Assembly: GCF_039555335.1 (NCBI RefSeq)
Contig: NC_092644.1
Span: 52,293,365-52,357,364, forward strand
Length of the DNA stretch: 64,000 nucleotides
Reading direction: 5' to 3'
Source of the DNA: Amphiura filiformis
Taxonomy: Eukaryota; Echinodermata; Ophiuroidea; Amphilepidida; Amphiuridae
Shown one piece after another: positions 26,197-63,135 of this stretch (position 1 is the stretch's first letter; every line of letters starts with the position of its first letter). The notes below the pieces were generated by a model. It was not told the origin of the DNA. It was given only the letters and a program-made list of their open reading frames with translations, and searched no databases. The translations under genes and the position numbers were made by a program.

Positions 26197-26268
26197 ATGA
26201 GGTACATAGATAATTTTGAGTTACGAGAGTGGGTCAAAGACAATCTTCGAAAGACCATCTTCCAAAAG
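26197..26268 (+). CDS. Gene B, exon 1: start of MADS-like domain (24 codons)
   Basis: ATG at 26197 begins MRYIDNFELREWVKDNLRKT and IFQK, then the donor GTAGGT. An upstream acceptor (TTTATACAG at 26136-26144) suggests this exon starts at 26145, so at least one non-coding exon precedes it. A short upstream ATG at 26145 ends at TGA before the main start. Length, phase 0 and sequence match exon 1 of gene A. In an ungapped comparison with the SRF MADS domain I see the shared motifs [FY]IDN, RKT, KKA/QKA and ELS/ALS. The domain would bind DNA or mediate dimerisation; this is inference. Confidence 0.88.
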
Positions 26269-26781
26269 GTAGGTAACTAATTTGTTTAGTTTTGTTTGAT
26301 TTTACTCCTAGAGCATACACATGGTTTTTAATCATCAATTGTCAAGTTTTGCTTGCCTTTGATCAAGAATAATATTTTGACTCAGTAGTGTGGATTACTT
26401 GTGTACAATGATTTTTGTGTTAAGGTGATGAAAAAAACCTCTTTTATGGGTGGATGGACTTTTTAAGCAGGGATTTATTTATTTTTGTCTCAATGCTAAA
26501 ATGACTCTTTTATTAAAATTTCACAGAAAGCTTGAATAATCTGGCAAAAAATTGATTTTTTTTTTTTTGCATGTAATTTTAAAAATGTTCTGATTTTTTT
26601 TTTCAAATATTTTCAGTCAAAATCAACATTTCCTGGTCAAATAATGGCTGATTTTACATGATATTAGCCAAATTAAAATCAAACAAAAAACTAAAAATCA
26701 AAATCTGCGTCGATGGAACCTGTTTTTGTTTCTGTTGCCTAACCTATTATTTCACTTCTTCTTTGCCACCTGTTTACTTAG

Positions 26782-26923
26782 GCCCATGCTCTAAGCATTC
26801 AAACAGGGTGTGAGGTTCTCATCAAGTTGAAAGATGATGCAGATGAGCTAGCGGGTCAGCAGTGTTATGCTACAGGCAGTCTACAGAAAGACTATGTCAA
26901 CAAGGGGCTTAGAAAACATCCAG
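26782..26923 (+). CDS. Gene B, exon 2: rest of MADS-like domain
   Basis: TTTACTTAG acceptor, then AHALSIQTGCEVLIKLKDD and later QQCYATGSLQKDYV; donor GTTTGT after CCAG. The exon has 142 bases and ends in phase 1. Together with exon 1 it reads QKAHALSIQTGCEVL, which lines up without gaps with the KKAYELSTLTGTQVL helix/strand of SRF, and CYATGSLQK lines up with the TFATRKLQ strand after a three-residue gap. Gene A encodes the same domain. Confidence 0.88.
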
Positions 26924-27464
26924 GTTTGTAGAACACATGAAGAGTTCAGATGTAAAATGTGATAATCGGTATCTCCAAAGGCTGCTTGTTCTTTCTATTG
27001 ATGGATTAAATATTTTCATCTTTTATTGGGGATTTTTTTTATTATGAAATTTTGTGTTGAATAATTCAATAAAAACAAAACAAAAACAAGGCAGAGATGT
27101 ATTATCGCTTTTGCATTTGAACTCTTCATAATACACAACAAACCAGGGTCAGAATTTCGGCGAGAATCCACGAATCGATTCTCGCAAAGATTCTTGTAAA
27201 CAGGTTTGCATGAATCAGAATTGATTCTCGCAAACTTTTGTAGTTTACACAGAAGTTGATCTGCAAGAATCAAATGATTCCCACGAATGTATTCTGTAAG
27301 AATCAAGATTGATTCTTGCATCAAGATTGATTCTCGCACTGTGAAACAAAATTCTGACCCTGCGATACACTACATGTACAATGTACATCATGTCAATCCA
27401 AGGATATCTACTCACTGTATTAACCTCAATATTAGGGGCTTCTATATGATACATCTACTCTTAA

Positions 27465-27816
27465 GGGGGTACTACACCCCTGCCCAATTTTAAGCCTATT
27501 TTTGCATTTTTCTCAAAAATTATAGCACATTGGTGGCAAGTAAGATATGTACATTATAGGGGCAAGGACTACAACTACTGCACTGGAAATTTTATTTCGA
27601 CACAGACAACAGTTGTGGAGTTACAGTCAAAAATGAGGGAAAACCAATATTTGATCAATAAATCAATAACTACTTGCCTTGAGTTGCTGAATTTTCAGTG
27701 TAGTAGTTGTAGTCCTTGCCCCTATAATATACATATCTTACTTGTCACAAATGCGCTATAATTTTTGAGAAAAATGCAAAAATAGGCACAAAATTGGCCA
27801 GGGGTGTAGTACCCCC
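27465..27816. mobile_element. TTAA-flanked MITE in gene B intron 2
   Basis: TTAA at 27461-27464 and 27817-27820 flanks GGGGGTACTACACCCCTGCC at the left and its mirror ending GGGGTGTAGTACCCCC. The arms extend inward through GCCTATTTTTGCATTTTTCT. A fragment of this family is also inside the element at 19671-20404. Confidence 0.82.
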
Positions 27817-27834
27817 TTAATGAAGTACTCTTAA

Positions 27835-29759
27835 AGGTGAACCTCATTGAAAATAAAGTTATATATCAATGAAAAGCTTATGATGTCAGGATAGTAAAAA
27901 TTATTTTTTCCGATTTTTTTGATGGCCAATAAAGCTGAAAAATGAAAAAAATTAATGAATTTTTGGTCTTTTTTAAGGCGCCCAAAAAGCACCCAAATCA
28001 ATCGTCTATGACCTTGGGAATGCTCATGGCGTAAGCTCAGGGTTCATGAGTCACGTGATCCTACTCGGAAACACGTAAACAAGACTTGCTTCCTGTACTT
28101 TGCAAGCTGCCCGGCAAGTCTGATTTTCACAATAAACATGATAAAGCTTGAAATTAGAGGAATCTTCAAGTTCCTGGTTCCTTCTATATATATTAGAAAT
28201 AATAGAATTATTGTCAACACATAAATTTTCCGTAAATTTTTGACAAAATCAGTCATAACTGGCTGGGTATAACTGGGTAATTGAGTTTGAATTTCGCGCG
28301 GGCGCTGGGATCAATCCCATGCGCAAATGCTTGCTGCTACCGAGTACCGTTCATGTCATGGACTGAATAAACATGATCGAATAACAAATTAAATACTTGT
28401 TTGTGACATTCCGTATTCTTGATTCATTTTAAAATATCTGATTTTAAAAAATATCGTCTTGCAGTAATCAAAAAATTAATAAAGAACCGCCGATTTCGTC
28501 AAATCCAGCCCATATAAAGGTTTTCATATTTAGCGCATTGCGGTAATACATTCTTTCCACACAATCACGATTGAAAGAAACAGATACTCGGGCAGATACT
28601 TTATGATAAAATAAATACAATTTAGGCTTAGTAGACCGTTATTAAATGGAAATCTGAATAAAATTAAAACATTGTCACTTGTGTCACGATTCTTTAATGA
28701 TAGTACAATCAGTGTACGGTACTGAAAAAGTGAAACATTCATGTTTTATGGATTACCGAACACGATGCGTAAATTGCTGAAGAAATTGTAGGGACGGATA
28801 TGCACAAACACAGCGACTCGCTTGGGGCTTAAATCCGCCCGGCAGCACTTGCGTTGTGTGTTCCATATATCTGTGGTTTCATGGGGTGTTTCAGCAGATT
28901 TGATCAATCGTTCCCTTATATTTGGAACATTTACAGGAATCAATTTTGCTGATGAAGTAACAATAAGTTGGAAATATCAGAATGTGAATATCAAATCGGT
29001 CATTTTGTCTGCAAGTACAGTACAGTCGCGGATACTGGACACTCGGCGTAGTGAGACTCAGTCAGTCTGCAGTCACTGAGCTCATCCCGTATGTATCTAT
29101 ACAAGTTCGCCTATCATACATGACCGGCCATGACCGGTTGTAAAGCTAAGAAATAATTAAAAAATCCTGTACATGTACCTTATTCTATTCCTTCATTTTC
29201 TCATTGTGTTCATCTCAACTTGGTGTGACGATCTGAACTGGTAGCACTAGCAGTTATTTTTTGCAATCTGTTTTCATTCGCTGAATCTTCGCTCTTCGTG
29301 CTTTACTGTAATATTCCCTATGCATATCGTGGATGGCTTGGCCTATCCCAAATCACCCCGCCAGCACTTTTCCCATTTTAAATCCCCACACTTTATTCAG
29401 GAACTTCATTCTTGATTTGATCATGATATTTCCTTCATGTAATTCTTATTTTATTGAAGATATTTTTTCATGTAAAGTTGACAATGACTGAATTGGCCCG
29501 ATGCATGCCACAGTAATACACGGACATTGTGTTTACAATCAAACCCGGAAGTAACTGTGTGTCCCTGGGCTGGCGTCATCAACTAAAGCGCCCAATTTGA
29601 ACGATTTCGTTTTGTAATTTAGGGGGTGCCAATATCCAATCTTTGCATGGAGATTATGTCTAGCCTGATACGCTATGCAAATAAAAAATATTCTTTTCTG
29701 CTTCCTGACATCATAAGCTTTCCATTGATATATAACTTTATTTTCAATGAGGTTCACCT
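27835..29759. mobile_element. TTAA-flanked 1.9-kb non-autonomous element in gene B intron 2
   Basis: TTAA at 27831-27834 and 29760-29763 flanks AGGTGAACCTCATTGAAAAT at the left and its mirror ATTTTCAATGAGGTTCACCT at the right. The inverted repeats continue for about 55 bases (ATATATCAATG, AAGCTTATGATGTCAGGA). No transposase frame inside. It starts only ten bases after the neighbouring TTAA element. Confidence 0.82.
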
Positions 29760-29763
29760 TTAA

Positions 29764-30231
29764 TACTGATTTCTAAAACCAATGATGTCTGTAAGTCTTA
29801 TTCAGAATTTGAGAAATGCCAACAACCTAGCCGAATGAAATCGCCCGAGGGAAATCGGGACAAATGTTGCCACACATCAACTGACCTGTAACAATGGAGG
29901 TCCATAGCTCTTGGTCAATGTAAGCTACAGATCACCTGACATTATGTTATAGAACATGTTATTGGTAGCCTATTCAGCAGAGCCTTATCTGCTTCACTGA
30001 CCGTGGGCCAATGCAAGCAACCATGGGCCAATGCAAGTAGGATCAATATAGTACATATAACAAAGAAAGTATTAAGTACTTTTCCTTGGGTAAACATAAT
30101 TATTTACTTTTCATTTATGGTGTTTGGAGGGAAACTTTCTGATCTCTTTTACTCTTTGTATAGTTATATTTTATACTTTAGCTACGTACTTGATTGATAT
30201 CTTTCTTATTGTTTCCTTTTCATTATAACAG
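29764..30231. other. Rest of gene B intron 2
   Basis: Between the TTAA element and exon 3. It ends in the pyrimidine-rich tract TATTGTTTCCTTTTCATTAT before the exon 3 acceptor. No gene. Confidence 0.5.
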
Positions 30232-31090
30232 AGGAGTTTTTTGTGTCTGGTGAGACCGGGTTACCGTTGGTAGATCAGGGCATACAGAGTGACGAGACCA
30301 GTTTACCTCCTAAAACATCATCAAGAACTAACAGTGCTAGCAGTACACATCAACAAGCAGGTCATGATGATTTAGAAAGTTTTACACAACTTCGGGGACC
30401 ATTAGGAAAGGGAGGGACTAGATGTGTGTCAGATCAAAGTTTCCAAACAGATGTACTCACAGCATCATCTCAGCACAGTGATACTGAGATGAAGATGAGA
30501 GCTGTTAGTCTCTCTCAGAACACAGAATTCCATTCCACAGTAGAGACAGAAGGATATGGTCCATCATGTGCCATGGATCAATCCATGCAAGAAGAGGATG
30601 ATGGCGGTGGTGGTAGTGGTGATGATGACATCAGAACGTTAGTCAAAATGGAACCAGGCATAGATCTTGACCACATTCCAGCTGCACTTTCTTCCAGTGA
30701 TACCCCAGCCGGGGTTATAAGTAAAACAGAACACATCTCAGGGAATATTGATGTTGATGCAGAGGATGCACAAGATATGGATGATGCAGATTTGACATCT
30801 ATGTCGCTCACGGATGCTGCACTATCCCAAGAACTTGATGGCAGTGGTGCTGGAATGTTTAGTGATTTACATGTAACACCATCTCAAGATACTACCAGTA
30901 AGCCATTTCAGTGTGCCATATGTCAAAAGGCCTTTAGAAGTGTACAGGTATTACAGAAACATAGCGTGACTTTTCACAGACAAGGACAACAAGGTAAAGC
31001 CATCCGGCTTGCAGCTCCCCGTTCAAGAAGTAGAGGTGGTGGAAAACACAGTGGAGGAATGCAGTCCAGAACAAACACACAAACATTTAT
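30232..31090 (+). CDS. Gene B, exon 3: acidic linker and first C2H2 finger
   Basis: CATTATAACAG acceptor; the split codon G-AG restores the frame to give EEFFVSGETGLPLVDQG, matching gene A EVEVSGETGLPV. Residues 72-357 are Ser/Asp/Glu-rich. LVKMEPG near residue 208 fits the SUMO-acceptor consensus. The C2H2 finger at residues 297-320 (FQCAICQKAF, then QVLQKHSVTFH) is the orthologous position to finger one of gene A. A basic Arg/Ser/Gly stretch (RSRSRGGGKHSGG) follows. The exon ends in phase 2 at ACATTTAT before GTAAGT. The GTG at 30243 is not a start; it is an internal codon. Confidence 0.9.
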
Positions 31091-31600
31091 GTAAGTTTTA
31101 AAATATGGATGTTCATGTAATAGCAGGGTACAATGGGCTTAAAAAATTGTAAAATGGTGTTCACACATGGCACATACGCACAGTATGTGCAGCACCTACG
31201 CAAAGTGTGACTGACTGCGTGCACACTTTTTTGAAGAAAAAAAAGGAATGCTTGCATCTACTAGGTTTCACATGAAGAAGATTGACCTGCTCATGAACAA
31301 AAAACGAATAGTTCCCCCCCGATAACATGTTGAACAAAGTACATAATTGTGGTTAAGTATTGTTCACTGTTGGAATCAAGGCAGTTCAGCTAGCGTCCCA
31401 CCGAACCACACGATCAGAAGAAATTGTGAAAACATTGATGGCTGGTGGCAAGAATTTTCACACCAAATAAGTCAAAGTTTACTTTTATGAAGGGCAAGCT
31501 GTACCAAAGGTGTGACCTGATGTAAAGGGATCAAGTTTTCAATTTCAAATTGTGTTCTTAATGTTTTCTAATTAATTTTGTTGTTTTTATTTCTTCACAG

Positions 31601-31886
31601 GCACACTTGTACAATTTGCAACCAAAGATTTCCTGAATCCATCCTTCTAAACGACCACATCGTCAAAACCCATCTAAATGTGTCTCAAATGATCCCCTCA
31701 GCTCAGAACGCACCAGGCCCATCCCAGTTACAGTATGCTAACACCCAAGGAAGCCCCCAACTGCCCCAGATAACCTCAGTGAGTTCTCTTCAGTACCAAC
31801 CCCCCATGAACCCCACACCATCTGCAGCATCATCTTATGGTCAAAGCCCAGTAGCACCAAAGCCAAGTACTAGTCAACAAGGACAG
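31601..31886 (+). CDS. Gene B, exon 4: second C2H2 finger and the common splice donor
   Basis: TTCTTCACAG acceptor; the first base completes ATG, then HTCTICNQRFPESI and LLNDHIVKTH form a C2H2 finger at residues 359-382. A Pro/Ser/Gln-rich stretch leads to the donor CAG-GTAAGTG at 31887. The constant exons 1-4 sum to 1,359 bases, exactly 453 codons, so the donor is phase 0. Every downstream cassette must begin on a codon boundary to be joined here, and they do. If the donor is not used, translation stops five codons later. Confidence 0.88.
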
Positions 31887-32343: not shown

Positions 32344-32802
32344 ACTAGCCACAAGCCTCCTGTTGCAGCCGCCGGAGCACCAGCCATTCTGCTTCAAGAA
32401 CCCTCTCAAGTTTATTACATACTTTCTGAGGATTGCGAGGATGTCATTTTCCCTATCAGGCACGAGATGGAAGGACCGCCCAATGCCTCATACGAGCCAG
32501 TTAGGATCCCAGCTGTAAAGTTGCAGGACATGAGGATAAGATGCTCGACAGCAACCAGCTTCACACGCAATCTACTCAGTTATTTTTTTGACCAGAAGAC
32601 GAGGGCAACTTCAAATTTTAACGGTAAAGGGAGCGTGATGACGCCCCAAGGATCCATTAATAAACACAAACTTGATAGGAGGATTGTACTGACCATGCTG
32701 GACCAAGTTGAGTTGCAGTTCCCCGGATCTACAACAGAGCGCAGTAACTTTTCAAAACTAATTGAAGCTATCAATGACAAGTGCCGTCATTCATACACAT
32801 AG
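32344..32802 (+). CDS. Terminal cassette T1: classical BEN domain
   Basis: Acceptor TTTAAATCCAG, phase 0, 152 codons plus TAG. In-frame stops lie just upstream (32305, 32314), so the open frame starts at the acceptor. The BEN domain covers roughly residues 75-150: FTRNLLSYFF, a TSNFNGKG turn, HKLDRRIVLTMLDQVELQFP and INDKCRHSY. BEN domains are alpha-helical DNA-binding and protein-contact modules found in transcriptional repressors and insulator proteins. This is the closest cassette to the constant exons and the most classical BEN in the array. A second pyrimidine-rich acceptor 25 bases downstream would shift the frame. Confidence 0.85.
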   Translation, partial: TSHKPPVAAAGAPAILLQEPSQVYYILSEDCEDVIFPIRHEMEGPPNASYEPVRIPAVKLQDMRIRCSTATSFTRNLLSYFFDQKTRATSNFNGKGSVMTPQGSINKHKLDRRIVLTMLDQVELQFPGSTTERSNFSKLIEAINDKCRHSYT

Positions 32803-35240: not shown

Positions 35241-35726
35241 CTTCCAGAACCCATTGTGATGGCAGCTCCTGAACCAGGGAAATTCTACTTGGGTTCGGAC
35301 ATGGGGATGGTTCGGGACATTGCAGATTACAAGGCTATGCTACGTATTGTCATGTCTAACAAACGGAACACGGATGAGGAGAATGGGCGTTTTCTTTGTG
35401 GGGCATTGCTGCGCTTTGAGTTATCCGAGGAACAATTGGCTACGGTAAACATCACCGGATCATCCCGAGACTCCGAAACAAAGAAAAAAGAAAACTGGAA
35501 AAAAATAGATAAGAAACTGCTACATGCCATATACACCCAGGCAAAGTACCAGTTTGCAGGATTTAAGGACCTATACACAGATCATAAGAATAAAACTTTT
35601 ATATATATCCAAGATAACTGTAAGAAGGCAAGAGCAAAACTTCGCAAGAAACAAAAGCAGAAGAGAGTGACAGAGGTTGATTCCAAAGCGGCCCTGATGC
35701 ATGGTAATTTGGACATTTTGAGATAA
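35241..35726 (+). CDS. Terminal cassette T2: YLGG-class BEN domain
   Basis: A strong acceptor (CTCCTCTTCCTCCTCCCAG) opens the exon in phase 0; 161 codons follow to TAA. GKFYLGSDMG begins the module near residue 12; then NGRFLCGALLRFELSEEQLA, VNITGSSRD, DKKLLHAIYTQAKYQF and NCKKARAKL. The helices and the LD/ID-x-x-[LI]-x-AI and N-x-C-x-x-AR signatures are those of BEN domains, preceded by an extra conserved YLGG..DYK segment that defines this class in the array. A basic lysine/arginine tail could act in nuclear import or DNA contact. Confidence 0.85.
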   Translation, partial: LPEPIVMAAPEPGKFYLGSDMGMVRDIADYKAMLRIVMSNKRNTDEENGRFLCGALLRFELSEEQLATVNITGSSRDSETKKKENWKKIDKKLLHAIYTQAKYQFAGFKDLYTDHKNKTFIYIQDNCKKARAKLRKKQKQKRVTEVDSKAALMHGNLDILR

Positions 35727-37728
35727 ATCCATATCTTGGGTAGTGTGAGGGTGCTCTTTCCATTGGTGGCATCCTCAAATCACCACCGTGCTTCATTTTG
35801 AAGATAGCAGAACCTATCTTGACACTTTTTTGTCACTTTTCGTGTATTTAATGTGGTAAACTGAGTTATCTCAAAGTTTTACCACATTAGTCAAGACCAT
35901 CTAAAAACCCTAAAGCATTGATGATAACACGGCAAAACAACCTATCTCAATATAGATCATTAGGTTTAATAATTTATTTTATTCAAAAAGAAAAACGTCA
36001 AGTGTTCAAACTTAAAAGCTCTTTTTCTCAAAACAGCGATTTTCAAGTTAGATCATTTTACCAAATCAGGACCGACAAGCACTTGATAACAATTTCAGTT
36101 GTAGGCAGACCTACCTGGTGGACTTACTTGAAGATCAAAGGTTTGTCATGATTGCTATACATTTGGTCACAATAATAGTACACAATTTGCAAACTTTCTG
36201 TGTGTTTGTACATTTGCTGCAGTTATCATAATGACCATGATTTCAAGATATTTAAAATTAATGTTGAACATTTTAAATTATCTAATTATGACCAAAGGTC
36301 TAGCATAATTGGTTCTAAAGTTTTTTTTTATGTCTATTTTCTTATTATTTTATTGTTTTTTACTCCATATTTTTACCTTTATCTCAGTTTCAAATTTGCC
36401 ACCTTTGGCCCCCATGGACCAGATCGTGTCACATATGTAGTAAATACTAGATAGGCTCCAACATGTAACTTCATGAACATTGAAAAAATGTCAATGTTCA
36501 AATGATTGAAAGCAGGCTGTAGGAGAAACTAGAAAGTTTGAGTAGAAACGATGTAACACTTTGCCATTTTTAGGCGAGGTTTCCAGTAATTGCATACAAA
36601 CACATTTGCATCAAATGCAATGCTTTGACTCTATATCTTGAATGAACATTTTGGAACATTTTGATGTGTAACTAAATTCCAGGTCTACTGCCAAGGAATT
36701 ATCACATTTGAGAATGTGTCATAAATGTATCCCACTTGAAGTATGATTTGTGAACATCACCCTATATTATAGGGCCTATAATGTGTCAAAGTTGTGTATT
36801 CACTATGTGCGGCCTCTGTTATTAAAAAGCCCATGGTAGAAAGGGATCACTTTCTTCCAAAGAGCCTTTTTCGCTGTGCACCCCAAATGGAATGTGTTTC
36901 TGGTTTATAGTTTAAATGACACACCCACTATAAATGTTCTTTATAAATGTAGCAGTCAATTAATTGACGACCAACACTTGCTTTCTGTTGCCACCATGCT
37001 TACAAGCAATATTTACTTGATATTTTCCAGATCTACACCTGGCTGTTTAACCCCTCATAAGCAATGATATTGCAGACAGAAAAATAGATGTGAATTTTCT
37101 CATTATATCATAGAGTCAAACATTTTGAATTCAACAGTTTCTTTATTTTTCCCCTATGGCTTATGGCATGTGACTTATGGTTTCTATCCTAATGGGGATG
37201 GCACACAGACTTGAATTGATACATCCCCAAGATTCATCGGTGCACTTGTTCCAGACCAAATACTGCAAGGGGAAGATACAGGTATGGGACGGTACATCAA
37301 ATAGTATGTGAAGTTACTCAAGTATGTCAAATCTAGAGCAAATGTGATAGTGACCGATGACTGATTCTGTGCATGACACTTCTAAGAGCAAAATTTTTGC
37401 ATGAAGAGCTAGCTATGACATTACAGGTTCGTCGCGTGATGTTAACAAAAAAACCTTTTGTTACTTTATTGTCATTTTTAATGAAAAATATAGATTTTTT
37501 TTCACAAAATAACAGAACTTCAGTTACTTCACATAGCCACATCTAGGCCTGTAGGCCCACCGTTGATTAATATAATTGATTAGCCATCATAATACTTGCA
37601 TTTATTCGCTTTTCAATCGTATTCTTTGATTAAAGGCTGAAATACATGTAGCTTCATTGAAGGACGCTTTGGCATTTGAACGAAAACAAGATCGTGACCT
37701 GATGAAAAAGATATATAGCTAGCTTCAG
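35727..37728. other. T2 3' flank and spacer, nothing recognised
   Basis: Open frames at 35918-36454 are low-complexity translations of AT-rich DNA. No gene or repeat arm that I can support. Confidence 0.5.
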
Positions 37729-38418
37729 CAGATGAGCAGCAATTATGAAGCACCAACTACGAGCAGAGCAACCGCCACACCAGACCAGACGACAAGAAAG
37801 CCCGCCACCACGCACACCCGTGACAGAATTGATATAGGCCTACCTGCTACCTCAGTTATACCTGACATTCCCGCCACACCCGCCAAACCAGCCGCGTCCA
37901 CCAGACCTACTATACCAGTCACGCCTGCCACACCTGTCATGCCAGTCACAACAGAATTGGCTGCACAGAGAAATCCGTTTGAAGCTCGTTACTTCAGTGC
38001 AGCATCCGCAGGTCAGCTTTTGCTTGGTGGAGACCAAGGTTTCCCACGAAATGTCACATGGTATAAGGACATACTCCAGCAGGTAAGCTGGAAAAAGAAG
38101 ACTGTGGATGACGATAATGGACGGCTTCTGTGCATGAAGCTGTTGAGAGCGGAGTTTTCTCAGGAAGAGTTGGCGTCAAAGAATGTCACCGGGGTCACTA
38201 GGAGTCGTGAGAATCTCAAACTCATGAGGATTGAACAGCTGGACACGAACATCCTCACAGCCATTTTTCTTCAGGCCAAACATCAATTCCCAGGATTCAA
38301 TCAATGGTATACCAACACCAAATGTGCGACAGTTAGAGAACTTAATAATATTTGTCAGAAAGCAAGGGTCAAAGCCCATGCAGATCAACGCACAGTGCAA
38401 AGCGACAATATGGAATAG
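37729..38418 (+). CDS. Terminal cassette T3: Pro/Thr-rich linker plus YLGG-class BEN domain
   Basis: The in-frame TAG at 37720 is followed by CTTCAG-CAG-ATG, a tandem NAGNAG acceptor; either AG keeps phase 0. The cassette encodes 229 residues. Residues 1-85 are Ala/Thr/Pro-rich with imperfect repeats such as PATPAKPAA and PVTPATPVMPV. The BEN module follows: GQLLLGGDQGFPRNV, NGRLLCMKLLRAEFSQEELA, KNVTGVTR, DTNILTAIFLQAKHQFPGF, NNICQKAR. The long linker is unique to this cassette. The polypyrimidine tract before the acceptor is weak. The antisense open frame here is a shadow. Confidence 0.83.
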   Translation, partial: QMSSNYEAPTTSRATATPDQTTRKPATTHTRDRIDIGLPATSVIPDIPATPAKPAASTRPTIPVTPATPVMPVTTELAAQRNPFEARYFSAASAGQLLLGGDQGFPRNVTWYKDILQQVSWKKKTVDDDNGRLLCMKLLRAEFSQEELASKNVTGVTRSRENLKLMRIEQLDTNILTAIFLQAKHQFPGFNQWYTNTKCATVRELNNICQKARVKAHADQRTVQSDNME

Positions 38419-39137: not shown

Positions 39138-39641
39138 GCTGGTATGCCTACAGTGGAACATGCAAAGAATGAGATGCCACCACACCGTCCGTCTACTCAG
39201 CAAATTCCATTAGATGTATATCATCCCAGATGTATTCATTCGCCTACATCAGGGATGTACTACTTAGGAGGTGATACGGGAAAGGAACGAAATATCACAG
39301 ACTATAAGAAAGTGCTTCACGAGGTAGCGCGGCATCGGAAGGATTCCAATGAAGGCCGTGGTAGACTACTGTGCTCCGCACTTTTACGCCAAGAAGTTTC
39401 TGCTGAAGAATTAGCCACTAAGAATGTCACTGGTTTATCGAGAGGAGTCGACAGGAAGCCATTTCCAGTACCCAAAATTGATCAAACAATCATTCATGCC
39501 ATTTTCAGCCAGGCACGGAAGCAATTTACCGGTTTTACAGACTGGTACACAAATTCATGTTCACAAACTTTAGGTGCGATGAACAATGTATGCAAGAAAG
39601 CTCGTCTCAAAAAAATGAAAAAGAACCCTAATCAATCATAA
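39138..39641 (+). CDS. Terminal cassette T4: YLGG-class BEN domain
   Basis: Acceptor TTATTATTATTAG, phase 0, then AGMPTVEHAKNEMP; 167 codons. GMYYLGGDTGKERNITDYKK starts the module, then GRLLCSALLRQEVSAEELAT, KNVTGLSR, DQTIIHAIFSQARKQFTGF, TDWYTNS and NNVCKKARLKK. AATAAA follows 75 bases after the stop codon, which gives a compact terminal exon. The alternative reading, a stand-alone gene, would need its own promoter in the 700-base spacer after T3; I see none. Confidence 0.85.
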   Translation, partial: AGMPTVEHAKNEMPPHRPSTQQIPLDVYHPRCIHSPTSGMYYLGGDTGKERNITDYKKVLHEVARHRKDSNEGRGRLLCSALLRQEVSAEELATKNVTGLSRGVDRKPFPVPKIDQTIIHAIFSQARKQFTGFTDWYTNSCSQTLGAMNNVCKKARLKKMKKNPNQS

Positions 39642-41753: not shown

Positions 41754-42284
41754 TTCTTGTACAAAGGCATTGTAATGCCTAAACTGAAGCCACAACGGAG
41801 GAGAGTAGTTCTTAAACTAGAACAGAAGCTTGAGATTATCCAAAAATTGGAGAGTGGTGCTAAGCAAGCTAGAGTGGCAGAAGAGTACAACATAGCGACA
41901 TCGACCGTATCAGAAATATACAAGCAGAAGGATAGGCTAAGACAGTTTGTTGCCGGTACCACTATGTTTGATGTCTTGGGAACTAGAAAAACGATGCGAT
42001 CTCCTGACTTTGAAGCCGTGGACACAGCAACATACCAGTGGCTCATACAGCAGCTAGAGCAGAATGAACCTGTCTCCTGGGATCTTGTCTGTGAGATGGC
42101 ACGGAAGTTCAATGAGATGCTCCTTCATGGTGGGACAGGTGGTAGTGAGGGTTTCAAAGCATCCCAAGGATGGTTGGATAAATTTAAGAAACGCCATGGA
42201 ATAAAAGCGCTGTCTGGACAAGAATGTGTCGTCTCTTCAGATCCTACACCTGTAGATTTGTTTCAAGTGGATGATAATCAATGA
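41754..42284 (+). CDS. Terminal cassette T5: CENP-B/Tigger-type DNA-binding domain (exapted transposase DBD)
   Basis: Acceptor ACTGTGTTTGCAG opens the exon in phase 0 (FLYKGIVMPKLKPQRRR); 176 residues to TGA. Residues 17-67 are a psq/CENP-B N-terminal helix-turn-helix (LEQKLEIIQKLESGAKQARV, AEEYNIATSTVSEIYKQKD). Residues 80-160 match the second CENP-B/Tc5-type HTH (TYQWLIQQLEQNEPVSWDLV, FKASQGWLDKFKKRHGIK). In Tigger/pogo transposases a DDE nuclease follows; here the frame stops right after the DNA-binding part, and no DDE remnant is seen downstream. Same strand, same phase and same position class as the BEN cassettes suggest it is spliced to the gene B constant exons. A stand-alone jerky/CENP-B-like gene cannot be excluded. 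Confidence 0.85.
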   Translation, partial: FLYKGIVMPKLKPQRRRVVLKLEQKLEIIQKLESGAKQARVAEEYNIATSTVSEIYKQKDRLRQFVAGTTMFDVLGTRKTMRSPDFEAVDTATYQWLIQQLEQNEPVSWDLVCEMARKFNEMLLHGGTGGSEGFKASQGWLDKFKKRHGIKALSGQECVVSSDPTPVDLFQVDDNQ

Positions 42285-43001
42285 TGGGGAAATTTACAAT
42301 ATCACTGAAAACCTTCATCATTCTGATTATGAAGTAACATTTTTCTTCTGATAATAGATTTATTAATACAGATTTGTTGAATGAAATTTTATACTGGAAC
42401 TAATTTGATTGTTTGCAACTATATATAGCTACTTTGATGATACCATCAAATTTCTTTAGGCAACTATACTTTTCAACAGAACAATGTAAGTGTTCTCCAT
42501 TAATCAAGGCAAGAGATCAAGCTTCTAGAAAATCATCTAGTTTGTTCTAATATCATTGAATGTAAAAAAAGAATATTTCTACTTTTAAATTAATTTTTTT
42601 ACAGGTTTCAAAATGGTCACTGATCTGATCATCACTGTGCTTTTCAAGTCCTTAGATCTAAACACAGTCACATATATACTTTTACTTGACCATAACCTGT
42701 TTTTTCTTGGTGTATTTTCTCTGTGGGATATTACCATAAATCCAAACCAAGCATCTAATATTGTTTACACACTTGCCGAAACATATGTATTGTTCATTCT
42801 GTTTCGTGTACAGAACTGATACTGTACCCACTCCATTCATTTTTTATCCACTTTTGTTTTTAAATATATTTAATATATATCCACTATTTAAAAGAAAATA
42901 TACATAACAAAGACGTTGTAGTTTCTGTACATTTACAAAGGTAGCTATAGATAACCTAATGCTATTAAATGCATGGCATAAAGAATGTAACATTTCTTTT
43001 C

Positions 43002-43007
43002 AATAAA
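43002..43007 (+). promoter_or_regulatory. Candidate poly(A) signal for cassette T5
   Basis: AATAAA in TTTTCAATAAAAGAAC, about 720 bases after the T5 stop. Confidence 0.35.
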
Positions 43008-44546
43008 AGAACAAATACTGAAAGGGAGTGCTTTAACTTTTTTATGTGCAAATTTATTGCGGTCTAGATTTAAGCACATATTCCGATTATCAAGCGGGTC
43101 TTGGTAGAAAGTTTGCATTCAGGTTGCATAAAAGAATTGTTTTGGTTCTCGTCTCCATCCACTTCAGAGTGCAGTGACCTTTTTCTTTCCTTTTTTCATT
43201 ATTATTAGAAAAACATAAAAACTGTTTATGTCCAATGCTGTCTAAGGCCTCTAAGTAACTAATCTTTTACATCTCTCCAGATGAAATATGAATGAAACCG
43301 GCTTCGGAAGCGCTAGCCAATGCTAGCAGTCTCGCTCGCTATTTGATATCAATAAATGTTTGAACGCTTTTGTACATGTCAGATACATGTAAATTGCTAA
43401 ATAACAAGTGGTTATGAGCGATTTTAAATAGTCTCGCATAGAATTCGAAGTAGTGTAAGCTGTCACAGTTAGTTGGCAACACTCAGCAGATGACAACATC
43501 AAGAAATTCCAAGGTAAAATTCCTTCTATTCTTAAGATTAGCAATAGTGTTTTAAGGGACTTTCAGAGATCTGTGAAGAACTAGTTTTAAAATGGTTGAT
43601 AAATTGGGAAAATACTCTTGCACCATTTTCTGTTCAGAAGTATCAAAACAATATGAACAAAACTGAAAAGTTGCATCAGTCTTTGAGGTTCAAGTCCCTC
43701 CATTAGATTTGCACCCAGTTCCTTATGCTGGTATACCCATGCATATAGAATTAAGATGGGCCTCTATTGACAAGAAAACACAGTTTCTAGCTTATTCATT
43801 GCATGAGCTGGTTACTATATTACTAAATATTCTCTTTCTAAAAGTGACAAAAAAGGCAAGTGGTGAATAGTGTAGTTTGGGATTGCCGGATCTCTGAATA
43901 TCCTTTTAAAGCTGAACGTTTTTTTGTGTGTGGTAACTTACATGATGATCGATTCAAAGCTTTTGAATGGTGCAGAATTTATGATCCTGAATGTATACTG
44001 ACCAAATGAATCAGGAAAACAAGTTTAGGATTGAAACCAACTTAAGATCCTGTGACGGACCATGCTGTATACATGAAATAAATGAATAAGGAATTCCCTA
44101 GTTGAATATGTATGTGATAGTTGAATATATATTCTTACATTGCTACAGGTATTTTTGATTACAAATGTATCACTTTCATGACATTTTGTAAAAAGTTCCT
44201 ATAAATTGGTCCCTATTTATCAGCTTTGAGAAATGATGAGCATAAATGGATGGTACGTCTCATTTTGTTGCATGATTTACCATAAATTACAGTCACTTGA
44301 TGTGTGACCAATGACTGCAATGTGCGACTCTGACTAAATAATAATTAATAATAGAGCAAAGCAAAAACCTCCCTTGCTCATAAATTCATGGAAATCCCTT
44401 CAGATGAGAACCAGCAATTGTTTTATGCAGCCTATACTGCTTTAACATGTCTCACTCATATGGTTTGGTTATCATTCATATCTGAAAGTAACCAATAATA
44501 ATCTTGCACAAGCCTTCATGCTTGCACTGTTGGTAACCCACACTTT

Positions 44547-44935
44547 CGAAAGGGTGGGTTTGAGAGGTCCACAAAATGCTTAAAAGGGTGGGTTTGAAAA
44601 ATTTCTGGTTAAAATGTGTGTCCAAATATAAAGGGTGGTCACTGATAAAAAGGGTGGGTTTAGAAGTCACCAATTGCAATCTCAAAGCTTACTTTAATTT
44701 CCGACTGAATGACACTAAATGAAACACAAAAAAACATTGAAATCCCATTCTGTAGTGTTTGGTCATCTAAAACTTCAATATGTAATTCTCTTTGGATGCA
44801 AATCTGCACCTCCTGGACCACCATAACCACTTATCTATGATTAGTAACCACGCTTAGAAAGGGTGGGTTTTGGAGTTTTGGTATAAAGGGTATAAAATAA
44901 AAAGGGTGGGTTTGAAATAAAAAGGGTGGGTTTGT
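44547..44935. repeat. Cluster of AAAGGGTGGGTTT words
   Basis: AAGGGTGGGTTT occurs at about 44549, 44584, 44649, 44861, 44900 and 44919, with AAAGGGTGGTCAC at 44630. It ends about 110 bases before the T6 acceptor. The flanks GTTGGTAACCCAC and ATTAGTAACCACGC are alike, so this may be an internally repetitive element. Confidence 0.6.
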
Positions 44936-45045
44936 ATCACCACTGCTAACTATGGCTTGGCTGCAATCCATGTCCTGATTTTACATGTGTCAAAAATAGT
45001 TTTTGTAACTTTTCTTTTCTTTTCCCCTAAACCTTGCTGTTTCAG

Positions 45046-45286
45046 AAACACCTTATTCCTATTGACCCAAATTATGCCAGTGTGCTGGTGAACCAGTATG
45101 AATTTGAAAGTATGCTTACAGAGGCTCCCAGATCTGCCAAGCCACATGAGTTCATTCTTAGAAAAACCATTGATTTGGTTTTCTCTAAGGAGGAGCTCAT
45201 ATCTTCAAGAGGACTGGGTTTGAGGAAAAACAAGGATTCAGAAGGAAAAGAACCTCTTAACAGTGTCAAAGTGCAAGCTGTGAAAG
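45046..45286 (+). CDS. Terminal cassette T6, exon a: first half of a split BEN domain
   Basis: A strong pyrimidine tract and TGCTGTTTCAG acceptor start the exon in phase 0: KHLIPIDPNYASVLVNQYEF, then FILRKTIDLVFSKEELISS, RGLG and LNSVKVQAVK. The donor AAAG-GTATGA leaves phase 1. The pattern L-R-x-x-[IL]-x-x-[VL]-F-S-x-E-E-L, then a G turn and AVK, is the N-terminal half of a BEN domain. The second half is the exon at 45939. Confidence 0.8.
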
Positions 45287-45938: not shown

Positions 45939-46054
45939 ATTTTGTGACGGCATACTGCACAACTCAGAACTGGGTTATACCTGACGAGAAGTTTTTCAGG
46001 AAGAGATTTTGCAACAAGGTCACTAATTCTCGGCGCTTAGATACATGTAGATAG
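45939..46054 (+). CDS. Terminal cassette T6, exon b: second half of a split BEN domain
   Basis: Acceptor TTTTGTTCCTGCAG; the split codon G-AT gives AVK-DFVTAYCTTQNWVIPDEK, then FFRKRFCNKVTNSRRL, stopping at TAG. The W, the FCNK and the NSRR signature are the usual C-terminal helices of BEN domains. T6 totals 118 residues. The phase-1 intron at AVK-D is shared with T9, so the two are paralogous split cassettes. Confidence 0.78.
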
Positions 46055-51038: not shown

Positions 51039-51140
51039 ATATCCAAGAATAATGTTGTCCAATTCGCAAGTCAACTTCAAGAAATCCACCAAAGTATGGC
51101 ATCAAGCTTGTGTGGAGGAGACACAGGGTGGCACATTAAG
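51039..51140 (+). CDS. Terminal cassette T7, exon a (5' part)
   Basis: Acceptor CCCCATTACAG starts phase-0 ISKNNVVQFASQLQEIHQSM, then CGGDTGWHIK. The exon ends CACATTAAG at a GTAGAA donor that belongs to the inserted TTAA element. In T8 the same coding sequence runs on without interruption, so this donor was created by the insertion. With the next piece it restores the IKEEP motif exactly. Confidence 0.72.
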
Positions 51141-52048
51141 GTAGAAACATCGGCTACGGTGTCATGCACAGATTTGGTTTAAAATGATACAGGATGTGTA
51201 GTTGGGTGAGAAAAACTTGCCTGCCAAGTTTTAATTTTTGCCAACAAAGCATTTTTGAGTTATGCCATTTTTTATCATTAGAAAGCCCCATTGACTTTGC
51301 ACATAAAGTGGTTTTGACACTAAGCCTTGTTCACTAAAATTGGTAAAAGTTTGAAAATGGATACTATGTTTAAATATTATTTTTTCTCCTTTCTATCCCA
51401 TTTATAGAACTGCTTTTTGGATCTTTTTATTACAAAAATGTTACCAAATAATATTAGTGACTTTTTTCCAATATATTGGTCAGTAATATAGGGGATATTT
51501 GAAGGTGATGTTAGTACTTGCTCAAATTTTCTTGATTTGATCTAGAAACACTGAATGACCCAATTTCATAATTATTGTCTGAGCTAACCATAGGGCCAAT
51601 TATAACAAACAAGGTGTCATATGAAAGGTTATTAAATTTAGAAACTTTTCTCGCCAGCTTTTTTTAATAAAGTGTTTCTATTTTAAGTTATGGGTGTTTC
51701 TAGATTTCCCTAATTTAAAAATAGAAAAAATGATTTTTCTCAAAAAATAAACACTTTATCCAAAAAATCTGGCGAGAGAATTTAGATATTAGGCTTATTA
51801 ACCACCCCACAAACTATGGAGACCATATCACATTCCCTCTAGGCTAGCAATAATTATTAGTAGAAAAAATTAGGGAATTTTCAAAAAATAAAGAAAAACA
51901 TAAGAATTGTTTAAATTTTCATGAAACATTAAAAATCAGTGGAGTAAAGACTTATCTTCAATTGGTTATATATTTGAAATGGATACATAATTCTGATTTG
52001 AAATAGTGGCTATTTTCCTGCATGGGTCTATTATCCGATGCTCCTACC
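51140..52048. mobile_element. TTAA-flanked transposon acting as a candidate new intron in T7
   Basis: TTAA at 51136-51139 and 52049-52052 flanks ends GGTAGAAACATCGG and CCGATGCTCCTACC, imperfect 14-bp inverted repeats. The paralogous T8 exon has a single TTAAG at this spot. Splicing from GTAGAA at 51141 to the TTAAG acceptor at 52053 removes the element and one target copy and keeps the frame. Inside, CTCGCCAGCTTTTTTTAAT and AAACACTTTATC are inverted around 51650-51780. No transposase frame. Confidence 0.75.
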
Positions 52049-52053
52049 TTAAG

Positions 52054-52123
52054 GAGGAACCTATCAATTCTGACAATGATGATGTAGATACTGATGCTGA
52101 GGGCACTGTAGTGTCAATACAAG
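52054..52123 (+). CDS. Terminal cassette T7, exon a (3' part): acidic SUMO-like motif
   Basis: EEPINSDNDDVDTDAEGTVV, then SIQ and a phase-1 donor GTAGGA. Joined to the previous piece it reads HIKEEPINSDNDD, a psi-K-x-E site followed by acidic residues. This is the pattern of a negatively charged SUMO-acceptor motif. Confidence 0.72.
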
Positions 52124-52332: not shown

Positions 52333-53204
52333 ATAGAGATGAGGAAACCATGACAACAACAGAGGAGGGAGTGTGTTTGGAGCAACTACTAAGTCATTCA
52401 AATCCAGCAGCATCTAGTGAGTTGGTTGAGATACTGAAACATATCAAAACTGCACAGAATAATATGAATGACTCACTCAGAGACTTATCAACAGTGCTAG
52501 GAACTCTTACAGCCACCGTTGATGACAATCTCAATAAAACTGAACTGGTGAGAGAAGCTCTGAGACTGCTTAATCAACAGCCTAGGATGGCTCAAAGTTC
52601 TACCCATCATGCTCAAGATATTCCTTCAACAAGTGGGGTAGTGCAAGAAGCAGACCATAGAGGCGCATCAACAGGTACCAGTTATCAACAGCAAGTGGGT
52701 GAACATGAAACTCCTGAAGCAGCATTATTAGAAGCCTCCACTCCAGATCTTCCTATTCCAACAACAGGTGTGTCATTCACACCTAGGTGCATGGATGGAC
52801 CAACTCCAAATAGCTTCTATATGGGAGGTGTCAAGGATTTTGTTCGATCAAAGGCAGTTTACTATGAATGTATGAAAGAAATTCAGGGTTATAAAAAGAC
52901 AAAGACCAAACCTGAAGATTTTGGACGATTGTTGTGTCTGGCTATGCTCAGAAAAGAATTCAGTGCGGAAGATCTCAGAACAAAGAATATTACCGGAAAT
53001 TCAAAGACCGCTGATAAGAAGAAATTTGTGGTGGGAAAGCTTGATCAAAGAAGGCTTAAGGCCATTTTTGACCAAGCATCGATGCAATTCCCAGAATTTG
53101 TGGACCAGGTGATGGACACATCAAGCAAAACTACCCGTGCCATACAAGAGATTTGTAAGAGGGCCCGGAAGCATAACAAGCATCAAAATTTAAAGCTGAC
53201 TTGA
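52333..53204 (+). CDS. Terminal cassette T7, final exon: coiled coil plus YLGG-class BEN domain
   Basis: Acceptor TTGTCAATCACAG, split codon G-AT giving DRDEETMTTTEEG. Residues of the exon about 15-85 are heptad-like and helical (LVEILKHIKTAQNNMN, LGTLTATVDDNLNKTELVRE). A Ser/Thr/His-rich linker follows. The BEN module is NSFYMGGVKDFVRSKAVYYE, FGRLLCLAMLRKEFSAEDLR, KNITGNSK, DQRRLKAIFDQASMQFPEF, QEICKRARK. T7 as spliced has 347 residues, against 360 in T8. An AATAAA at 53385 could end the transcript. Confidence 0.85.
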
Positions 53205-54318: not shown

Positions 54319-54502
54319 ATATCCAAGAATAATGTTGTCCAATTCGCAAGTCAACATCAAGAAATCCACCAAGGCACGACATCGAGCTTGTGTGGAGGAG
54401 ACACAGAGTGGCACATTAAGGAGGAACCCATCAATTCTGACAATGATAATGTAGATAATGATGCTGAGGGCACTGTAGTGTCAGTACAACTTGTACTACA
54501 AG
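54319..54502 (+). CDS. Terminal cassette T8, exon a: SUMO-like motif
   Basis: Acceptor ACCATTACAG, phase 0: ISKNNVVQFASQHQEIHQGT, then HIKEEPINSDNDNVDNDAEG and SVQLVLQ, donor GTAGGA in phase 1. It is the uninterrupted form of the two T7 pieces and so shows the state before the TTAA insertion. IKEE followed by acidic residues fits a SUMO-acceptor site. Confidence 0.8.
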
Positions 54503-54713: not shown

Positions 54714-55612
54714 ATAGAGATGAGGAAACCATGACAACAACAGGGGAGGAAGTGTGTTTGGAGCAACTACTAAGTCACACAAATCCAGCAGCATCTAATG
54801 AGTTGGTTGACATTCTGAAGGATATCAAGAACGCACAGAGTCACATCTCTTCAACTGTCGGTCACATGAATGACTCACTCGGAGACTTGTCAACAGTGCT
54901 AGGAACTCTTCAAGCTACCGTTGATGACAATCTCAATAAAACTGAACTGGTGAGAGAAGCTCTGAAACTGGTGAATCAACAGCCTAGGATGGCTCAAGGC
55001 TCTGCCCAACATGCTCAAGATATTCCTTCGACAAGTGGGGTAGTGCAACAAGCAGACCATAGAGGCATAACAACAGGTACCAGTTATCGACAGAAAATAG
55101 ATGGACATAAAACCATAGCATCATTATTAGGAGCCCCCAATCCAGATCTTTCTATTCCAATATCAGGTGTGTCATTCACACCTAGGTGCATGGATGGACC
55201 AACTCCATATAGCTTCTATATGGGAGGTGTCAAGGATTATGTTCGACCAAAGGCAGTTTACTATGAATGTATGAAAGAAATTCAAGTTTATAAAAAGACA
55301 AACTTGACAAACACCAAACCTGAAGATTTTGGACGTTTGCTGTGTCTAGCCATCATCAGAAAAGAATTCAGTGCGGATGATCTCGGAACAAAGAATGTTA
55401 CCGGAGTTTCAAAGACCTCTGATAAAAGAAGGAGAATCGATTTGGAAAAGCTTGATCAGAGAAGGCTTAAGGCCATTTTTGACCAAGCATCGATGCAATT
55501 CCCTGAATTTGTGGACCAGGTGACAGACACAGCAAGCAAAACTGTCATTGCCATACAAGACTTGTGTAAGAGGTTCCGGAGAACATATCAAACATCAAAA
55601 AAGCTGCCCTGA
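54714..55612 (+). CDS. Terminal cassette T8, final exon: coiled coil plus YLGG-class BEN domain
   Basis: Acceptor TTGTCCATCACAG, split codon gives DRDEETMTTTGEE. The helical region (LVDILKDIKNAQSHISSTVG, LGTLQATVDDNLNKTELVRE) suggests dimerisation. The BEN module is YSFYMGGVKDYVRPKAVYYE, FGRLLCLAIIRKEFSADDLG, KNVTGVSK, DQRRLKAIFDQASMQFPEF, QDLCKRFRR. Compared with T7, the length differences are whole codons (SHISSTVGH, and NLTN before TKPED). The frame is kept, which argues that both copies have been under coding constraint. AATAAA lies 15 bases after the stop. Confidence 0.86.
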
Positions 55613-57574: not shown

Positions 57575-57690
57575 GGTATTGCTGCCCAGGGCAGCCAAAC
57601 CTCGGTAGCTACATGTCGGTGATTGTGTGCGTGGCATGCGAGGGGTACTGGGTTCGAATTCCGGGGTAATAAGTGACTTCTTTCTTCACC
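57575..57690 (+). mobile_element. Possible tRNA-derived SINE head
   Basis: GGGTTCGAATTCCGG at 57650-57664 is a good RNA polymerase III B box, as in tRNA genes. A weaker A-box-like CTCGGTAGCTA lies about 45 bases upstream. The clover leaf does not close convincingly, so a functional tRNA is unlikely and a SINE head is the better guess. Confidence 0.4.
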
Positions 57691-58188: not shown

Positions 58189-58423
58189 GTACAAGATATT
58201 GTAGCCACAGCCTGTGAGGTGTTGAATTTGACTCCAACCCACCTGCGCATACTTCAAGTACAACACAAGGTTGCAAGCAAGATGCTTGGTGCCCTGATGC
58301 AGAGACAGTGGGGCAAATTGACCCTGTCTAACAGCAGTGTCTTTGGGTCTAGGGTTGCTGTTAATAAGAAGGACGCAGGGGCAACTACACGGCTACCACC
58401 TGTGGAATTTGGGGCCATAAAAG
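58189..58423 (+). CDS. Terminal cassette T9, exon a: first half of a split BEN domain
   Basis: Acceptor CATACTGCAG, phase 0: VQDIVATACEVLNLTPTHLR, then KMLGALMQRQWGKLTLSNSS, FGSR and LPPVEFGAIK. The donor AAAAG-GTAGTT is phase 1, at the same place after A[IV]K as T6. The second half is at 58898. Confidence 0.77.
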
Positions 58424-58897
58424 GTAGTTATTATGGAATGTATACCTTGTAATTTTTTATGTATAGGAGATGAATGCTTTGGACTAGTCTTGGCCTTCAA
58501 GTAAATGGTTTAAAGTTAATTCTTCTGTAATTTGGATGATTTATTTTTCTGAAGGACCATAATTCCAAAATATTGCTAGGTTTCATTACTCCAAAGTTGA
58601 AAGTTCATAGTTGAAAAGTCAAGGGGATATTTGGAAATACAAACATACTGATGTCATGACTATGTTCTTGAGGCCCCAATGGACATATGAATGTCCTTTG
58701 TGCCATCCTTACTTCAAGTTGGCGATGCTTGCTTTGTGCCCATCTGATATTGAAGACATTCTCTTGATCACTAGTGTTATTTCAAAGAAATACAGCAGTT
58801 TAGTTCTTGCCTTGTTGCCAGTCATATTCAACCATGTCAGACTATTTTGCTATAAACCTTTTGGATTAAATCATGTTATGTGGTGTTTTATTTTCAG

Positions 58898-59016
58898 CTC
58901 TTGTGGCTTATTTCTTCCCGGATACAAAGGAAACTGAAATGCACAGAGCCGCCAATGCAAAATGTTCAACAGCTCGAAGGAGCTTAAGGAGCTTCCAAAC
59001 TAACCCAACTGGTTGA
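58898..59016 (+). CDS. Terminal cassette T9, exon b: second half of a split BEN domain
   Basis: A good acceptor (GTGTTTTATTTTCAG); split codon G-CT gives AIK-ALVAYFFPDTKETEMH, then RAANAKCSTARRSLRSF and TGA. N-x-K-C-x-x-x-RR is the C-terminal BEN signature. T9 totals 117 residues, close to T6 (118). Confidence 0.77.
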
Positions 59017-60913: not shown

Positions 60914-61426
60914 AAAGCCAGTGCTCGTGACGTTGATGATGATTTCTGGAGAACAAGGCCACAGTTTGCTCCACGTGTGATAACAATGCCAGCATCATCA
61001 GGACAGTTTCTTCTGGGAGGCTTTTCAAATTTATCACGGAGCATCAAAGAATATAAACAAGTGCTGAAGAAAGTGTCATTCTACAAGAATCCAAACAACA
61101 ACGAAAATGGACGACTCTTGTGCATGCAACTTCTGCGACAGGAATACTCCCTTGCCGAACTCGCTACGAAAAACGTGACTGGCTTCTCTCGAGAAAGGAC
61201 AGGATATCGGAAAATCACAATGCCCAAGTTGGATGAGACTATCTTAGCTGCTATTTTCACGCAGGCAAAACATCAGTTTCCAGGTTTTACAGATTGGTTC
61301 ACGCATAAAAGATGCAAAACGGTGACGTCTTTGAATGATTGTTGTAAGAAAGTCCGATACAGTTTGAATCCTGATGGGAAAAAGGAATCCTATTATAGTC
61401 TTACAAAAGATGATGCTGGGTTTTAG
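60914..61426 (+). CDS. Terminal cassette T10: YLGG-class BEN domain
   Basis: Acceptor ATCATCTTCGCAG, phase 0: KASARDVDDDFWRTRPQFAP, then ITMPASSGQFLLGGFSNLSR. The domain continues NGRLLCMQLLRQEYSLAELA, KNVTGFSR, DETILAAIFTQAKHQFPGF, TDWFTHKRC and LNDCCKKVRY. It has 170 residues. The acidic start DVDDD and the PRVI-x-MP lead into the module are shared with T11. AATAAA lies at 61718. Confidence 0.86.
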   Translation, partial: KASARDVDDDFWRTRPQFAPRVITMPASSGQFLLGGFSNLSRSIKEYKQVLKKVSFYKNPNNNENGRLLCMQLLRQEYSLAELATKNVTGFSRERTGYRKITMPKLDETILAAIFTQAKHQFPGFTDWFTHKRCKTVTSLNDCCKKVRYSLNPDGKKESYYSLTKDDAGF

Positions 61427-61717
61427 TACTTATGATTGATAAAAGAGACAAAGTTGCATATATATTCGAATAGGATTCATTAGATGCTTACTCGGACAGC
61501 TCATACAAAAGAAGTTAAATGCTGAAGTTGGTTTTGAGATACTAAAGTTAAAGTTGACACATTTCTTTGCTTTTAATTGCTTTGTTTGTTATTTTGATTA
61601 GTTTTTAATTATGAAATTATCTTATTTTCGGAATTACTGCATGTCACTTCAGTTTTGATGAAAATTTCCAACTATTTTTGCTTGAACAAAATTGTTTAGA
61701 TTGAGAGAAATTTGTTC

Positions 61718-61723
61718 AATAAA
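61718..61723 (+). promoter_or_regulatory. Candidate poly(A) signal for cassette T10
   Basis: AATAAA in GTTCAATAAATC, about 290 bases after the T10 stop codon. Confidence 0.45.
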
Positions 61724-62297
61724 TCATTCATTTTGCTTGATGGCTTAATGTTTTTGCTTCTCCATAAATATAGAACATAGGTTTCTAGCCTGTTGCCACC
61801 CCAAATGTTGTCACAACCCTGAACAAAGTTACAAACAACCCTGAACAAAGTTACAAAATAATAAAACATGATATAGGGGTTCAAAGACTGCAATTTAATT
61901 TAAAATAAAGTATAATCTGTATTGGGACATGTGACACAATTTGACATTGGGTTGGAAGATATCTATATTCTAACTTCCAACTCCTGTATAGGATTTACAG
62001 ATGCTATGTTAACCAAAGAATTAGAATGCAGAATACATGTTCCACTAAGGTTGCAATGGTTCAGAGTGGGTAAAATTATGTTCCTCTTGATGTAGTGTGT
62101 GCATGTGCAAATTCAAGCTCATAATTTGTGCTGACAATAAACTTATCTACAGGATGAGTATGTTTTGTTATAACCAAAGTAATAGAATCATGATGAAGAA
62201 TTATATGTATACTCCACCAAGAAACTGAGGCAAGAGTCCATGTTCCTCAAGAGCTCTAGGGTAAAGTAGTGTTTCTTCTGCTGATGTACATGAAGTA

Positions 62298-62472
62298 CAG
62301 TGGAAACTCATTAACACAAAGTTGTGCGGAATTCAAATTTTACTTCTTGTTATCAGGAGTTCGTGTTATCCAGTTCTAATAACATGTGAAATGTATGCTT
62401 GGGAATATAAAACATACTTCTTGTTATCAGGAACTTCATGTTAAGAGGGTTCGTGTTAACAGGTTGCCACTG
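62298..62472. mobile_element. pogo/Tigger-like MITE just upstream of T11
   Basis: CAGTGGAAACTCATTAACAC at the left and GTGTTAACAGGTTGCCACTG at the right are imperfect inverted repeats flanked by TA (62296-62297 and 62473-62474). CAGTGG-AAC-TC ends with a TA target are typical of pogo/Tigger transposons. Inner GTTATCAGGAGTTCGTGTTA and GTTATCAGGAACTTCATGTTA are direct repeats. Confidence 0.65.
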
Positions 62473-62623
62473 TATATACATTTGTGTTGATGAAAGCTGC
62501 AAATACTATAAGGGAATATGCAAACTGTGGCACCTCTTTATATTTTCTTAGATATGTGTTCTTATATACATCAGACTGATCAGATTTTATTTCTTGTAAA
62601 TATTGTGTCTTTGCATGGAGCAG

Positions 62624-63135
62624 ATAACCAGCAAATACAACACTGGGAACCAATCAAGTACCGGTACTCCATCCACAGCAGATGTCTTCACACCACGTAT
62701 CATAAGCATGCCAGAACCAGGAAATATTTCCTGGGTGGAAACGATTCTTTTGTCAGAAATATCAAGGATTATATAATGCTGTTAAAGAAAGTTGCAGTGT
62801 TAAGATCATATGCTGATAATGCAGAACGTGGCCGGAAACTGTGTGGACTTCTTTTGAGACAAGAATTCAGTAAAGAAGAGCTTGCTTCAAGTAATGTCAC
62901 TGGGTTCTCTCGAGATCAAAACAAGAGAACCATACCTATAGCTAAATTGGATCCAGTAGTTGTAACAGCTATATTTAGTCAAGCCCAACACCAGTTTCCA
63001 GGTTTCACAGACAGATATCTGATGGAAGGAGTTAACAAAACGTTTAAATATTTGAATGATATATGTAAAAAAACAAGGCAAGAGATTGGGAGATCATATA
63101 CTAATTCACTGAAATTGAAGTCACTTGAAAATTAG
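62624..63135 (+). CDS. Terminal cassette T11: YLGG-class BEN domain with a probable 1-base deletion
   Basis: The natural acceptor TGCATGGAGCAG would start phase-0 ITSKYNTGNQSSTGTPSTAD, then VFTPRIISMPEPG, matching the lead-ins of T10 and T2. That frame breaks at GGAAATATTT near 62722, where other cassettes have one more base. The BEN module then continues in the next frame: KYFLGGNDSFVRNIKDYIML, GRKLCGLLLRQEFSKEELAS, SNVTGFSR, DPVVVTAIFSQAQHQFPGF, LNDICKKTR. An acceptor eight bases later (AACCAG, exon start 62632) would give an open phase-0 frame of 167 codons. So the cassette may be rescued, a recent pseudogene, or a sequencing error in an A run. Confidence 0.75.

Follow-up and report, generated by a model that had tools for sequence, protein, structure and literature searches.

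A probable lola/mod(mdg4)-like locus on a MADS-like chassis, with BEN-type ends, in the brittle star Amphiura filiformis

Does a gene of the brittle star Amphiura filiformis join one constant N-terminal half to several alternative 3' ends? The question is raised by gene B, whose four constant exons face a row of candidate terminal exons (cassettes T1-T11), all on the same strand, in a window of 64,000 nt (the whole stretch of DNA analysed; Table 1). The fly locus lola combines common N-terminal exons with unique C-terminal exons, mostly encoding DNA-binding fingers, in at least 20 isoforms (PMC1947980), mod(mdg4) has a constant half and more than 30 alternative 3' ends (PMC12692577), and both were termed "two exceptional loci" within the BTB genes of the fly (PMC11426971). 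Gene B likely works like lola or mod(mdg4) as a gene, and we consider it probable that this lola/mod(mdg4)-like locus belongs to a brittle-star transcription-factor family, built on a MADS chassis and furnished with BEN ends.

Table 1. Positions in the window of the constant exons of gene B and of the candidate 3' cassettes.
Feature	Positions	Strand	Remarks
Constant exon 1	26197..26268	+	MADS-like domain, first 24 codons
Constant exon 2	26782..26923	+	remainder of MADS-like domain
Constant exon 3	30232..31090	+	acidic linker and first C2H2 finger; relatives P0014, P0057, P0059
Constant exon 4	31601..31886	+	carries the second C2H2 finger; donor following 31886 is phase 0; P0001 departs here
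T1, BEN cassette	32344..32802	+	5' end uncertain; weak acceptor, best 32369, phase 1
T2, BEN-type cassette	35241..35726	+	intact; strong phase-0 acceptor
Decayed BEN fragments, two frames	37110..37423	+	
T3, BEN cassette	37729..38418	+	broken; in-frame stop 37720-37722, upstream of listed acceptor
T4, BEN-type cassette	39138..39641	+	intact; acceptor 39138 or 39201, each phase 0
T5, CENP-B_N and Tc5 HTH open frame	41754..42284	+	alternative end or transposon remnant
T6 exon 1, BEN cassette	45046..45286	+	phase-0 acceptor, phase-1 donor
T6 exon 2, with stop	45939..46054	+	T6 intact; like X4 tail
T7 exon A, first piece	51039..51140	+	
T7 exon A insert	51140..52048	+	inverted ends, TTAA each side; alternatively possible GT-AG intron
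T7 exon A, second piece	52054..52123	+	
T7 exon B	52333..53204	+	coiled-coil-like stretch and BEN-type end
T8 exon A	54319..54502	+	phase-0 acceptor, phase-1 donor; T8 intact
T8 exon B	54714..55612	+	coiled-coil-like stretch and BEN-type end
T9 of preliminary description	58189..58452	+	open frame only, with neither domain nor second copy; rejected
T10, BEN cassette	60914..61426	+	intact; phase-0 acceptor
T11, BEN-type cassette	62624..63135	+	frame broken

The constant half was rebuilt from the window DNA exactly as the preliminary description had given it, with exons of 72, 142, 859 and 286 nt that add up to 453 codons and end at a phase-0 donor (CAG/gtaagt). With the 453 residues as a query, 76 proteins were obtained (7988 candidates scored; 249-793 aa covered), and all rows that named an organism were from A. 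filiformis. The best match was P0001, annotated as "isoform X4" (598 aa), which is 100% identical to gene B across all 453 constant residues and then turns into a 145-residue tail, the switch point being exactly the donor at 31886. The X4 tail is BEN-like (Pfam, 20.9 bits vs. a cut-off of 23.2). It is absent from the 64,000-nt window, where its sole good match is T6 (32% identity over ~105 residues, E 5e-12, and 35.8%, E 1e-8, when the window was searched with the tail; all others E > 0.8), so that the X4 joint, if cis-spliced, spans the whole cassette array. A palindromic element, recognised by eye, lies at 27465-27820 in the intron preceding constant exon 3, and its ends are gggggtactacacccct and its complement.

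Profile and fold comparisons support a MADS (SRF)-like N-terminus, as proposed earlier; the constant half also has two C2H2 fingers. For the N-terminal 72 residues, SRF was the best profile match (E 0.00089), and the first 17 rows of the structural comparison were all MADS entries. Unlike SRF and MEF2, gene B scored below the Pfam SRF-TF cut-off (20.2 vs. 26 bits) and has C2H2 fingers and putatively swappable ends after the domain; at E ≤ 1, SRF-TF matched all 12 scanned N-termini (best 9.3e-05). Animals are not otherwise known to have MADS proteins other than those of SRF and MEF2 type. No BTB domain was found among the Pfam matches of the constant part and, judged by its N-terminus, gene B is outside the BTB family of lola and mod(mdg4).

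Constant-half matches were grouped by their first 40 residues, with at least two representatives per group. This gave eight sister loci in A. filiformis with 10, 2, 3, 3, 4, 11, 2 and 18 distinct annotated tails (53 in all), and the tails of each set diverge at a single residue or no more than a few positions away. Isoform names in the gene B family reach X24. Seven of the eight loci, together with genes A and B, are on a contig of 64,221,909 nt, and the eighth is on one of 102,728,465 nt. Forty-six of the 53 tails (P0002-P0056) form one domain family with a motif of about AILLxxGPV; profiles built without a locus's own tails matched 8 of 10, 2 of 2, 3 of 3, 1 of 3, 3 of 4, 10 of 11, 2 of 2 and 17 of 18 of them, and three scanned examples (P0010, P0044 and P0054) gave no Pfam match to this domain. 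One sister locus has a FLYWCH end (P0018); neither FLYWCH nor the common tail domain gave a hit in the window. The annotation shows end-swapping at these loci, and the 53 tails behind eight N-termini indicate that gene B's family does combine a constant half with alternative ends. The proposal that gene B carries a constant N-terminus with swappable 3' ends gains support from the sister loci and from the use of the donor by X4, whereas T1-T11 were found in no visible protein. Gene A (P0060; 7014-11983, minus strand), which is arranged head to head with gene B and has the same MADS-like N-terminus, has one annotated fixed C-terminus made of several C2H2 fingers.

The eleven cassettes proposed earlier did not all withstand inspection. 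T2, T4, T6, T8 and T10 are intact, and the frames of these five and of T1 are open across their BEN parts; T3 and T11 are broken, the latter as already described, and T5 is perhaps a transposon fragment. T9, which has neither a domain nor a second copy, was dropped. The acceptor at 37729 was likewise abandoned for T3, given the in-frame stop and the similarity of relatives extending upstream of it, and a three-exon model of T6 was rejected because exon 2 reaches a stop at the point that matches the end of the X4 tail. The ~909-nt TTAA-flanked element with inverted ends in T7 exon A (51136-52052) has edges that make a frame-keeping GT-AG intron, and is possibly a transposon turned intron.

Pfam BEN scored T1 and T6 above and T3, T10 and T11 below its cut-off, and had no match at E ≤ 1 in T2, T4, T7 and T8. 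As judged from its predicted structure, T10 has a BEN fold, the first 15 structural rows being BEN proteins, and the other cassettes of this type are assigned to BEN by similarity to T10 or T1. Compared with solved chains by sequence, a BEN profile gave no BEN hit; the relationship shows in the fold alone. T5 encodes CENP-B_N and Tc5 HTH domains (45.6 and 54.5 bits, each above cut-off), the longest open frame behind it (42285-45000) is 79 aa, and it is equally likely to be a transposon remnant or an alternative end. Rfam gave no match at gathering scores.

Two general arguments for the array were not upheld. Of the 11 cassettes, among them T7 and T8 as copies of each other, 8 had their best acceptor, as scored against an acceptor consensus, in phase 0, but phase 0 was not in excess among acceptors with long open frames (6, 9, 2), and the phase match was dropped as proof. 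Poly(A) signals do follow several cassettes (5 of 11), but about as often as chance would give (0.42 each), and were dropped as well. The dN/dS of T7 vs. T8 was 0.82, near neutral. Both keep an open frame across 345 aligned codons; random change over this length, simulated as substitutions only with T8 as the starting sequence, gave ~4.4 stops and none in 1.3% of trials; this statistic is weakened because both were picked for being open.

When seven cassettes of the window served as the query of a profile search, 19 relatives of 140-319 aa emerged (6137 candidates); these are probably from other brittle stars. In a tree of 26 rows, T3 grouped with P0077 (98/98) and T7/T8 with six relatives (100/99), and, under the strong-support mark, T11 grouped with P0092 (94/85), T10 and T11 with six relatives (90/87) and T4 with P0091 (82/84); T2 stood alone. 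In P0080, P0083, P0093 and P0095, all T10-type, the similarity starts by eye directly after a glutamine, like CAG/A in T10, which fits the phase-0 acceptor of T10. When relatives of constant exon 3 were compared with 13 Amphiura representatives, gene B was the best match of P0014, P0057 and P0059 (163, 137 and 127 vs. 72, 62 and 59 bits) and, by a smaller margin, of P0065 (115 vs. 90 bits). P0014 and the T7/T8-type P0086 and P0088 are each on a contig of 57,649 nt, and the T10-type P0083 and P0089 are each on one of 17,306 nt; these equal sizes suggest, without proof, that the three share one contig and the two another.

Is any of T1-T11 used? In the constant-half search (249-793 aa), X4 was the only representative with the constant half of gene B, and since P0001 stands for two sequences, one further isoform may be hidden. 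A query of the chained cassettes, run without a positive control against cluster representatives of 272-866 aa, found none that holds any piece of them, the T7 and T8 products (~800 and 813 aa) being among those unseen. The absence of annotated products counts against the array. On the other hand, the name X4 implies X1-X3 and, as higher isoform numbers accompany shorter proteins in the gene B family, X1-X3 should exceed 598 aa, as products of T1, T2, T3, T4, T7, T8 and T10 would. Use of the cassettes is therefore putative; it is most probable for T6, followed by T8, T10, T2 and T4.

One alternative is that T1-T11 are separate BEN-only genes or pseudogenes in a long last intron, with gene B using only ends beyond the window. 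BEN-only genes are known, such as Drosophila Insv, Elba1 and Elba2 (PMC6911014), T2, T4, T8 and T10 hold possible start codons, and no visible annotated protein links the cassettes to the constant part. This reading is nonetheless unlikely, as T6 resembles the X4 tail, which is itself joined to the constant part of gene B, no Amphiura-named stand-alone protein appeared in the profile search at 126-400 aa, and the sister loci employ arrays of like ends. Another alternative is that the cassettes have promoters of their own and are trans-spliced to the constant transcript, as in mod(mdg4). Alternative 3' exons of mod(mdg4) have such independent promoters (PMC12692577), and the distance to the X4 tail, if in cis, would exceed 32 kb; however, mod(mdg4) has some of its ends on the opposite strand (PMC4667647), whereas the cassettes are all on the strand of the constant part, and we hold trans-splicing here to be unlikely.

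Also unlikely, in our judgement, is an array that has become a graveyard of former alternative ends, most of them no longer used, while gene B depends on ends outside the window. The broken T3, T11 and 37.1-37.4 kb copy, the interrupted T7, the near-neutral T7/T8 ratio and the invisibility of T1-T11 in the annotation would fit such decay, but six cassettes keep their BEN parts open, as T7 and T8 do over their aligned codons, the latter point being weakened by the choice of open frames.

In the favoured reading of gene B as a lola/mod(mdg4)-like locus, exons 1-4 would encode a constant protein in which an SRF-like MADS domain, which probably dimerises, is followed by an acidic linker and two C2H2 fingers. 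Its last donor would be joined, presumably by cis-splicing, to one of several 3' BEN cassettes of one or two exons with their own stop, and the DNA sites to which the constant half is directed could differ with the end that it carries. The cassettes may have been born by duplication and lost by mutation and insertion.

Gene B resembles lola in that shared N-terminal exons would be joined to differing C-terminal ends; unlike the BTB protein lola, it has an SRF-like MADS domain, two constant C2H2 fingers and BEN ends. Trans-splicing is known in lola. mod(mdg4) is likewise built on a BTB chassis, and its FLYWCH ends have a counterpart at the one sister locus with P0018 (PMC11426971). Identity to the BEN-domain proteins NACC1, BANP and Insensitive is 15-17%; in gene B, by contrast, BEN would serve as an exchangeable end among others, and BTB is absent. 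No paper on such loci in echinoderms was recognised in a literature search that covered few subscription papers and no bioRxiv preprints; "splic", "zinc finger" and "FLYWCH" do not occur in the main text of the Amphiura genome paper (PMC11310086), nor do "zinc finger" and "MADS" in PMC11959729.

More broadly, we think it reasonably likely that brittle stars have a lola-like system of independent origin on a new chassis, in which about a dozen loci, most of them on one chromosome, lead from an SRF-like MADS and C2H2 half to dozens of ends (BEN, FLYWCH and an unnamed domain). If true, animals would have a third kind of MADS protein, and transcription factors that swap their ends would have arisen a second time. 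Such a family in a deuterostome, alike in logic but with another N-terminal domain, would mean that end-swapping behind a fixed half evolved more than once, and the sister loci would offer a comparative system for how one donor picks among many ends. Upstream of gene B, open frames at 22080-22828 on the plus strand resemble, by eye, the last part of a LINE-type reverse transcriptase.
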